Positions 35,832 to 63,967 of a DNA stretch of 64,000 nt are shown here, piece after piece. Each line of letters starts with the position of its first letter. Position 1 is the first letter of the stretch. Position numbers and translations under genes: made by a program. The notes under the pieces are model-generated. The model had not been told where the DNA came from. It was given only the letters and a program-made list of their open reading frames with translations, and did not search any database. This DNA is from Streptococcus devriesei DSM 19639 (GTDB lineage Bacteria; Bacillota; Bacilli; Lactobacillales; Streptococcaceae), in NCBI RefSeq assembly GCF_000423725.1, contig NZ_KE384084.1, forward strand, positions 124,001 through 188,000. The letters run 5' to 3'.

Positions 35832-36163
35832 AGCTGAGATTATATCTCAGCTCAGACTGAAGAGAAAGTCTATTTTCTCAAAAAGTAATATTTTGTTATG
35901 ATACTTTCCTTAGGTAGCACGGACGGTAGCGACTTCCTTTGGAATTCCATACCTAGATTTTGAGCCTAGGTCTCAAAATCTCCGAGAGGCAGAAACTCAA
36001 TGTTTCTGCCTCTTTTGCTACATTGGAAAGTATCGGGGGAGGTTTTGATCGTTTCTATATTATTTTACAAAATAGAAAAGTAATACTATTCTATGATGAA
36101 ATTTTAGAGAGAATTTAGTTTTGGGAGTTTGTCTACAACCTGAGCTGAGATTATATCTCAGCT
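35832..36163 (+). repeat. Terminator-inserted repeat element A with duplicated hairpin
   Basis: The nox terminator stem-loop (AGCTGAGAT TAT ATCTCAGCT) occurs twice as exact 21-bp copies, at 35832-35852 and 36143-36163; only the second is followed by T7. Between them lies a 290-bp non-coding segment (35853-36142). Its ends are imperfect inverted repeats: CAGACTGAAGAGAAAG on the left, CAGGTTGTAGACAAAC as the reverse complement of the right. The inside has hairpins such as GAGGCAGAAAC / GTTTCTGCCTC. It shares about 90 bp with the element at 54145-54538. It looks like a small non-autonomous element that landed in the terminator and duplicated the stem-loop. Confidence 0.7.
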
Positions 36164-52668: not shown

Positions 52669-54120
<1,452 letters not shown>

Positions 54121-54125
54121 GGACA

Positions 54126-54559
54126 GAAGCGGCGCAAGCCGCTTCAGACTGTAGACAAACCTTCATTTGCTTATCTTGATAAACAAAAAGAATCTGCAGA
54201 CTAGCCTATAAATTTAAATGTTCACGAGCGCAAGCGAGCTAACTAAAGGATACTTCCGCCGTGATGAAAGTGTCAGAATTGGGACATGTAAGCCGATTCT
54301 GACACGCGGAAACTTTGAGACTAATCGAACACGGGCTGTGGACTGTGCAAAATAGATGAGTATCTCCTAAAGCCTTCTGAGACTCGTCGTCGAACTCCCT
54401 AATTTTGCTGTGTCCACTAAAACGCCCTTTGTATCTTACATTAGGCTCAAAGTTTAGGCATGGAATTCCTTAGGAAGTCGCTGCCGTCCGACATCACCTA
54501 AGGAAGTATCAAAGAAAAGAGACTTTTTCTTCAAACTGAAGCGGCGCAAGCCGTTTTTT
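54126..54559 (-). repeat. Terminator-inserted repeat element B
   Basis: The GH1 gene terminator stem-loop (GAAGCGGC GCAA GCCGCTTC, 54126-54145) recurs in part at 54538-54553 with T6 behind it. Between them is a non-coding segment of about 393 bp starting CAGACTGTAGACAAAC. Its reverse complement starts CAGTTTGAAGAAAAAG and shows the same left block as element A: GATACTT(T)CCTTAGGT, CGGACGG, AGCGACTTCCT, GGAATTCCAT, CCTA, TTTGAGCCTA. So it is inverted relative to A. Inside it is a strong stem (GTGTCAGAAT / ATTCTGACAC, about 54270-54305) and a nested member of the second family (54323-54437). Confidence 0.7.
54323..54437 (+). repeat. Structured element family 2, copy 1 (nested in B)
   Basis: Reads AATCGAACACGGGCT at the 5' end and GCCCTTTGTATCTT at the 3' end, which pair through GGGC/GCCC. 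Inside are GTGGACTGTGCAAAAT / ATTTTGCTGTGTCCAC and an inner GATGAGT...GACTCGTC stem. The ends match the copies at 61794 and 63766, but the interior sequence is unrelated to theirs while still folding. Confidence 0.6.
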
Positions 54560-61775: not shown

Positions 61776-61793
61776 GTTATTTTCTCCTTTAAT

Positions 61794-61902
61794 AAGATAC
61801 AAAGGGCATTAAGAAAGCGAGAAGAAATAGGAGCCTCGCGCCATGCGCTTTGCGCATAAGGCAGACTATCTTTTTCTCGACGCTTTTAGCCCATGTTCAA
61901 TT
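61794..61902 (-). promoter_or_regulatory. Structured element family 2, copy 2
   Basis: On the minus strand it runs GAACATGGGCT ... GCCCTTTGTATCTT and ends about 18 bases before the AAGGAG of the FMN reductase gene. Pairing: GGGC/GCCC; AAAGCG-CGAGAA / TTCTCG-CGCTTT region with a single-base bulge; inner ATGCGC / GCGCAT hairpin inside GCCT/AGGC. It fills almost all of the 104-bp gap between the two FMN reductase genes. Confidence 0.62.
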
Positions 61903-63747: not shown

Positions 63748-63765
63748 AAGTTTTCTCCTTTATTT

Positions 63766-63874
63766 AAGATACTAAGGGCGTGTCAAATCCGTATAAAAAT
63801 AGGAAACGGACGCTGTGTCGCTAAGACACAAGGACGTTTATCTTTTTTACTAGGATTTTAGCCCGTGTTCAATT
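63766..63874 (-). promoter_or_regulatory. Structured element family 2, copy 3
   Basis: On the minus strand: GAACACGGGCT ... GCCCTTAGTATCTT, ending about 20 bases before the tautomerase start codon. Pairings are GGGC/GCCC, AAATCC/GGATTT, GTATAAAAATA / TATCTTTTTTAC and an inner TGTGTC/GACACA hairpin within AACG/CGTT. Apart from the fixed ends these stems differ in sequence from those of copy 2. Confidence 0.62.
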
Positions 63875-63967
63875 AATAGTTGATACCTTTATTTTAGCAT
63901 ATTTTCAAAGAGATGGCGCCCCAAATTCCTTTTTAATTTATGAAAACTCAGTGCGCCTTTTTTGCTT

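Follow-up and report, generated by a model that had tools for sequence, protein, structure and literature searches.

Element B, a probable MITE-like relative of IS1182-family insertion sequences inside a duplicated terminator hairpin of Streptococcus devriesei

Element B lies between two copies of the GH1 terminator hairpin

In the window (the whole 64,000-nucleotide stretch, G000:C1:124001-188000, of the Streptococcus devriesei DSM 19639 genome that was analysed), a mobile-element copy designated element B is inserted in the terminator hairpin of a glycosyl hydrolase family 1 (GH1) gene, and this hairpin is duplicated around it. Its ends are similar to those of an IS1182-family insertion sequence (IS), the target duplications of related IS are centred on hairpin axes, and the type of RNA core that it carries shows covariation. 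The explanation covering all of these features, in which considerable confidence is placed, is that B is an IS1182-type MITE mobilised in trans into palindromes, with duplication of the hairpin and with an RNA core as cargo. The parts of the locus are the following.

52675..54120, + strand: GH1 gene, whose terminator was struck (Pfam PF00232, E=1.7e-131)
54127..54144, no strand: left hairpin copy of the GH1 terminator (target duplication), without a T-run behind it (read from the sequence; flank repeat score 15 against a control maximum of 6)
54145..54538, + strand: MITE-like element B (394 bp), oriented as Rfam SSRC8_2
54145..54160, + strand: left terminal inverted repeat of B, CAGACTGTAGACAAAC (16 of its first 20 bases as in the IS1182-family IS of the same genome)
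54249..54510, + strand: conserved RNA core of B, split by a nested element, closing stem GATACTTCC / GGAAGTATC
54324..54441, no strand: nested 118-bp element within the core, in the loop of its helix P4, with TA at 54322-54323 and 54442-54443
54524..54538, - strand: right terminal inverted repeat of B (reverse complement CAGTTTGAAGAAAAA)
54539..54556, no strand: right copy of the terminator hairpin, AAGCGGCGCAAGCCGTTT, with T6 at 54554-54559

The GH1 stop codon occupies 54118-54120 and the hairpin AAGCGGCGCAAGCCGCTT (54127-54144) stands directly behind the gene, B starting with CAGACTGTAGACAAAC at 54145 and finishing with TTTTTCTTCAAACTG at 54538. The first-pass annotation had described a hairpin before B and a second copy followed by T6 behind it, and the two copies indeed have 17 of 18 bases in common, the T-run being kept at the right copy only. 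The right copy together with T6 (54539-54559) is the likely working terminator of the GH1 gene. The annotated span of 54126-54559 includes both hairpins and was narrowed to the element proper, 54145-54538 (394 bp).

A second element, A, had been proposed as another copy of the same mobile element, inserted in the opposite orientation in an unrelated terminator. It sits behind a pyridine-nucleotide-disulphide oxidoreductase gene, between identical 21-bp hairpins.

35832..35852, no strand: left hairpin copy of A, 21 bp
35853..36142, - strand: element A, 290 bp, orientation opposite to B (SSRC8_2 51.9 bits on the - strand)
36143..36163, no strand: right hairpin copy of A, 21/21 identical, then six further T

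The flank repeats scored 21 for A and 15 for B, against a maximum of 6 among 552 mis-paired controls, so that insertion of B into the GH1 hairpin with duplication, as well as two such insertions in unrelated terminators, goes beyond chance. The reverse complement of B agreed with the left block of A at 74 of 90 positions (82%, E=2e-16), well above chance similarity, and a weaker block at the end matched at 23/27 (E=0.007). Beyond these shared blocks the sequences of A and B differ, though each contains parts of the same RNA core. The second element said to be nested in B was recovered as 118 bp at 54324-54441, between two TA dinucleotides. The observation was thus confirmed, and the interpretation that one mobile element is present twice, as A and as B, was supported. 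The finding also proved larger than stated: the family of the transposase, the duplication's being centred on the hairpin, and the conserved RNA core come in addition.

The ends of B resemble those of an IS1182-family insertion sequence

A genome-wide screen for the end motif led to an IS with similar ends (L063). The screen listed 49 exact CAGRYTGWAGA matches in the S. devriesei genome, of which 10 outside known pairs were examined (L061-L070), 8 further unpaired exact matches being left out. These 10 consisted of one IS (L063), one short deleted copy of 100 bp (L062), one known diverged copy (L066) and seven sites rejected as elements for being coding-like (on the strength of open reading frames in L061, L064 and L067 and by visual inspection in the other four). 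Another IS with CAGRYTGWAGA ends may also be present in this genome.

The L063 IS is 1536 bp long, has the ends CAGACTGAAGACAAAG and lies between duplicate copies of a 22-bp hairpin that is followed by a T-run. Its transposase is split into two open reading frames scoring 242 and 156 bits with NCBIfam IS1182, each below the cut-off of 270, and no working IS1182 helper transposase was found in the S. devriesei genome, the one located there being this split one. The IS was typed as IS1182 because its intact homologue in Streptococcus sp. 'caviae' (L076) passes NF033551 (IS1182), the top and sole model above cut-off, with 431 bits against 270; Pfam domains DUF772 and DDE_Tnp_1 were found in this homologue.

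Compared with the left end of the IS, the left and right ends of B matched at 16/20 and 13/20 bases and those of A at 15/20 and 13/20, the right end of B reaching 12-13/20 against the IS ends. The right ends thus appear to be the weak point of the match between MITE and IS1182 ends. B contains no open reading frame of at least 100 aa inside 54145-54538, hence no transposase gene, and it possesses IS1182-like terminal inverted repeats, a target duplication and several copies, as expected of a MITE. These properties support B as a probable MITE-like, non-autonomous relative of IS1182-family insertion sequences.

Target duplications are centred on hairpin axes

Relatives of the transposase were collected by a single scan of a genome collection, in which the best 80 of 111 matches were kept, giving 79 loci in Streptococcus, Lactococcus, clostridia, Peptoniphilus, Fenollaria, Serratia and others. 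A dyad test was carried out on the 57 of these 79 IS loci having both ends and flanks, the 22 lacking one end or flank being left out. Mismatch-free target duplications of 17-33 bp were present in 31 of the 57 usable IS copies, at 29 distinct sites (L086, L089 and L134 share one insertion site). In all 31 the centre of the duplication was exactly the hairpin axis, and none of 1000 sites drawn at random from these loci combined such centring with a hairpin score of at least 7.5, which is the lowest score among the 31 duplications.

The other 26 of the 57 IS copies were without a scored direct duplication. Inspected by eye, 14 had different hairpins at their ends and 6 no hairpin at the chosen right end; in another 5 the repeats were imperfect or partial. 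The last, L116, was a scoring miss, counted as having no duplication despite a 23-bp duplication on account of its short flank. The right end chosen is probably not the true one in L097, L113, L131, L132, L133 and L138. Two different end hairpins were observed in the IS1182-type copies L077, L096, L098, L107, L112, L127, L130 and L141; unlike ends of this kind would result from recombination of one copy with another or from joins in the assembly.

Over the 31 sites the length of the duplication correlated weakly with the span of the stem (0.26), and in L100 the possible stem span is 38 with a duplication of only 22. The rule consequently concerns the base of the stem and not always the full stem. 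Since duplication length varies while the centring holds, the favoured reading is that an extruded hairpin is recognised at its base and the cuts are symmetric, and hairpin-directed insertion duplicating the hairpin is the best-supported mechanism.

In this mechanism an IS1182-type DDE transposase would recognise in trans the CAGACTG(A/T)AGA... ends, and the element would enter a palindrome at its base, in many cases an intrinsic-terminator stem-loop, the strands being cut symmetrically about the axis and the hairpin being duplicated by gap repair. The T-run would stay with one hairpin copy, through which the gene would keep a terminator behind the insertion; the interrupted gene would thereby still be terminated, at a low cost to the host.

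The palindrome could instead be bound as duplex DNA, as a dyad-symmetric site, or the transposase could follow RNA polymerase or Nus factors paused at terminators, no DNA hairpin being extruded in either case. Duplex palindromes are symmetric too, so that centring alone does not separate duplex from hairpin, and many targets give the impression, uncounted, of the A-rich and T-rich sides of real terminators. A fixed protein-protein stagger on duplex DNA, however, normally gives one length, whereas the duplications here range over 17-33 bp and are nevertheless centred; this alternative is accordingly considered rather unlikely, though worth keeping in mind.

B carries a conserved RNA core related to SSRC8_2

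Searching Rfam with the whole window at gathering thresholds gave no match, and SSRC8_2 was exposed in e-value mode, with 51.9 bits for A and 22.3 bits for B against a gathering cut-off of 72. B is thus related to Rfam RF02616 (SSRC8_2) without being a member by its gathering score. Two relatives of B from one genome (G026) pass the cut-off, L176 with 76.0 and L193 with 76.8 bits, and the 281-position model spans them from hairpin to hairpin. The strongest SSRC8_2 locus surveyed (L195, 340.8 bits) begins and ends in similar hairpins (17/21 by eye), the model therefore running there from hairpin copy to hairpin copy. At E<=0.001, SSRC8_2 was found in 101 of the 118 genomes of the genus (above the cut-off in 14/118) and in none of 14 control genomes.

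The alignment used to measure covariation consisted of uninterrupted cores from other copies; an 88% identity filter reduced 98 distinct cores to 40, and B is absent because its core is interrupted. Across these 40 non-redundant cores 93.4% of cells were paired, falling to 36-51% when the partners were slid by 1-3 columns, and compensatory changes occurred in 31 of 40 pairs, a number reached by none of 500 shuffles. A possible pseudoknot between the loop of P4 and the 3' strand (84.9% of cells paired) is weakly supported, with double changes in 2 of 4 pairs, in one sequence each.

The core can also be considered as a resident sRNA gene or a riboswitch, of which the terminal repeats would merely be the structural ends. 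It corresponds to an Rfam sRNA entry (SSRC8_2), its covariation is strong, and for S. pyogenes SSRC8 a Northern signal, RACE ends and a Rho-independent terminator at its end were described in 2013 (PMC3675131). The repeats, on the other hand, resemble IS ends, the copies sit between different duplicated hairpins, and 26 of 86 cores have no terminal repeats by motif test. A resident sRNA would explain the cargo and not the unit, and is thus an improbable account of B.

With the core as cargo of a mobile element, the terminator of the sRNA SSRC8 would itself be a duplicate of the hairpin used as target. Transcription running on from the upstream gene, in the sense of B, would add a long 3' extension that stops at the right hairpin; the terminator at the end of SSRC8 is consistent with this.

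Cores without terminal repeats precede housekeeping genes

Among the 86 distinct cores, both MITE ends were recognised in 32, one in 28 and neither in 26; the motif test behind these counts tolerates two mismatches and is noisy, most of all in the 28 cores with one end. The next gene lay in the sense of the core for 16/26 cores without ends, 7/28 with one end and 6/32 with both, and 18 of the 32 full elements stood between convergent open reading frames by a crude call. Cores without ends, as well as some having a single weak end match, were found 19-168 nt before dnaK, groEL, purE, tpx, yhbY, rmlB, purB and others, phosphoglycerate-dehydrogenase-like and BglK-like neighbours being assigned below curated cut-offs. 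In seven genomes a sense core precedes dnaK by 32-138 nt (L187, L191, L253, L260, L261, L274 and L280); the gene was typed in L187, and the other six share its first 40 residues. The S. devriesei genome has a solo core 19 nt before purE (L068:2715-2846, G000:C10), and the same core before purE was noted by eye in L268 and probably in L276.

For cores outside the S. devriesei genome, with or without MITE ends, direct repeats scored at least 14 in 26 of 90, against 1 of 360 mis-paired controls; that one scored 24 and was exceeded by 4 of the 90. A crude palindrome score (7/26 at >=0.8) was discarded as misleading, A/T-tract matches shifting the repeat boundaries, and was replaced by the dyad test in the IS set only.

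A wider reading, offered tentatively, is that a streptococcal mobile family lands on extruded terminator hairpins, the hairpin and not the transposase setting the duplication length, and that it may have carried across the genus an RNA domain with covariation and perhaps a pseudoknot, co-opted as a sense leader between or before housekeeping genes (dnaK, groEL, purE, purB, tpx, rmlB). Duplication length would then apparently be set by DNA secondary structure, and whether a DDE transposase sees hairpin or duplex becomes directly testable. The catalogued sRNA SSRC8 would be re-read as the cargo of a mobile element, with a terminator copied from the host, and a widespread structured RNA would be exposed in front of chaperone and purine genes.

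Copies in the genome, a paralogue of B and its empty site

Searches of the S. devriesei genome (2.12 Mb) returned 37 aligned stretches with B and 54 with A, corresponding to 30 places by the authors' count. The flank test was done with 24 hand-curated copies with both ends, namely those of 23 of the 30 places and the IS; the copies of L005, L006, L008, L009, L020, L022 and L023, with an end missing or diverged, were omitted. In 16 of the 24 (IS included) the flank repeats scored above all 552 mis-paired controls, and these 16 repeats are 18-27 bp long and coincide with a hairpin. The remaining 8 had no scored direct duplication: 2 look inverted and in 6 the hairpin is lost or changed. In the two that look inverted, c3 (L004:1473-1881) and c17 (L025:1336-1715), the end hairpins resemble mutual reverse complements, as judged by the loop. 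At L007:1501-1560 (G000:C1:477477-477536) a B-type end fragment adjoins another element copy at one hairpin, as if two insertions had struck the same target.

The copy closest to B, at G000:C6:108245-108733, agrees with it in 376 of 392 aligned bases (96%). Besides the 118-bp insert, which it has at the same place, this paralogue contains an extra insert of ~90 bp; the hairpin duplicated around it (20/20) is a different one. With the insert at the same place and a different hairpin around it, the B lineage most likely moved again after gaining its 118-bp insert; a TA-flanked 118-bp element would thus have landed in the core of B before the lineage gave rise to the paralogue.

Two related genomes, G065 and G066, lack B at this site: the GH1 gene and the next gene downstream align there (87% and 81%), and the ~120 bp separating the two genes leave no room for the element. 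The G065 gap, the only one of which the sequence was read (the G066 gap being judged by length), holds a single hairpin followed by TTTTTAAGGTTTG, the right flank of B being TTTTTTAAGGTTTG; this hairpin differs in sequence from that of B. From this comparison G065 would represent an orthologous, not identical, pre-insertion site for B, the exact pre-insertion site not having been seen. Other candidates for empty sites were dropped: L180 and L201, neither locus being simply collinear, and G065 at the locus of A, where there is no copy of A but other sequence.

Capture by homologous recombination, or local duplication of the terminator, could in principle account for the hairpin copies without any transposition. 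The unlike hairpins at the two ends of several copies are what recombination between copies would give. Against it stand the many loci at which hairpins unrelated to one another are directly duplicated next to similar terminal repeats, and the element-free orthologous site in the relatives G065 and G066, which makes this explanation very improbable.

Comparison with known systems

The nearest known case is IS1272 / TnSha1 of staphylococci, an IS1182-family system that targets hairpins without sequence specificity, 5 of 7 of its sites being confirmed as transcription terminators (PMC4923244, 2016); that some IS1182 members target palindromes is cited there from Siguier et al. 2015. Family and insertion into terminator or other hairpins are common to IS1272 and to the elements described here. 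IS1272, in contrast, makes blunt cuts that delete part of the hairpin and leave no target duplication according to PMC4923244, whereas axis-centred duplications of 17-33 bp were found here in 31 of 57 IS copies, and a MITE family exists as well. ISSmi2, an IS1182-family IS of a pneumococcal genome (PMC10383233), was likened by description and not by sequence. ISPse1 of Paracoccus (IS1182 family, 1653 bp) is listed with a 4-bp duplication (PMC3281130), so that not every member of the IS1182 family makes long hairpin duplications.

SSRC8 (RF02616) is described as an sRNA, 'mobile' and 'transpos' occurring 0 times in the main text of PMC3675131. The SPRITE, RUP and BOX elements of S. pneumoniae are likewise short, dispersed, structured and over-represented between convergent genes; as presented in PMC3049150, SPRITE differs by its AAAA/TTTT ends and by having no established duplication, and duplication of a terminator hairpin is attributed to none of the three. 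Among the titles and abstracts returned by full-text literature searches, which did not extend to most subscription papers or to ISfinder, none reported hairpin-long duplications in the IS1182 family or SSRC8 as a mobile element. A distant search of a phage collection for relatives gave no match.

Membership of B in the IS1202 family, the first guess made from the long duplication, has next to no remaining credibility: very long duplications are known from its streptococcal members (IS1202 27 bp, ISSeq2 28 bp) and TGTAGAC occurs five bases inside the left end of B, the outer ends of Acinetobacter members being 5'-TGT (PMC10132070), but the transposase with similar ends belongs to another family, IS1182 by NCBIfam (NF033551), the hairpins abut CAGACTG and not TGT, and for the long-duplication group PMC10132070 reports that no target specificity was found.

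Nested elements

B is longer than A mainly through the 118-bp TA-flanked insert, the spacer differing too. Relatives of this insert occupy another position of the core in L004, L008, L012, L021 and L023 and stand alone in L024. Blocks matching both of its parts, TAATTGAACACGGGCT and ACGCCCTTAGTATCTTAAAT, were seen in the window at 63762-63875 on the - strand, which suggests a free-standing copy near the window end, and a further short match was noted at 61793-61810.

A second nested insert of ~90 bp, GACGATTGCCGTTAGAAAT...GGTTTTG, was observed at the same core position in L002, L008, L012, L021, L023 and L025-L030. Being at one position in many copies, it has probably spread jointly with the outer element.
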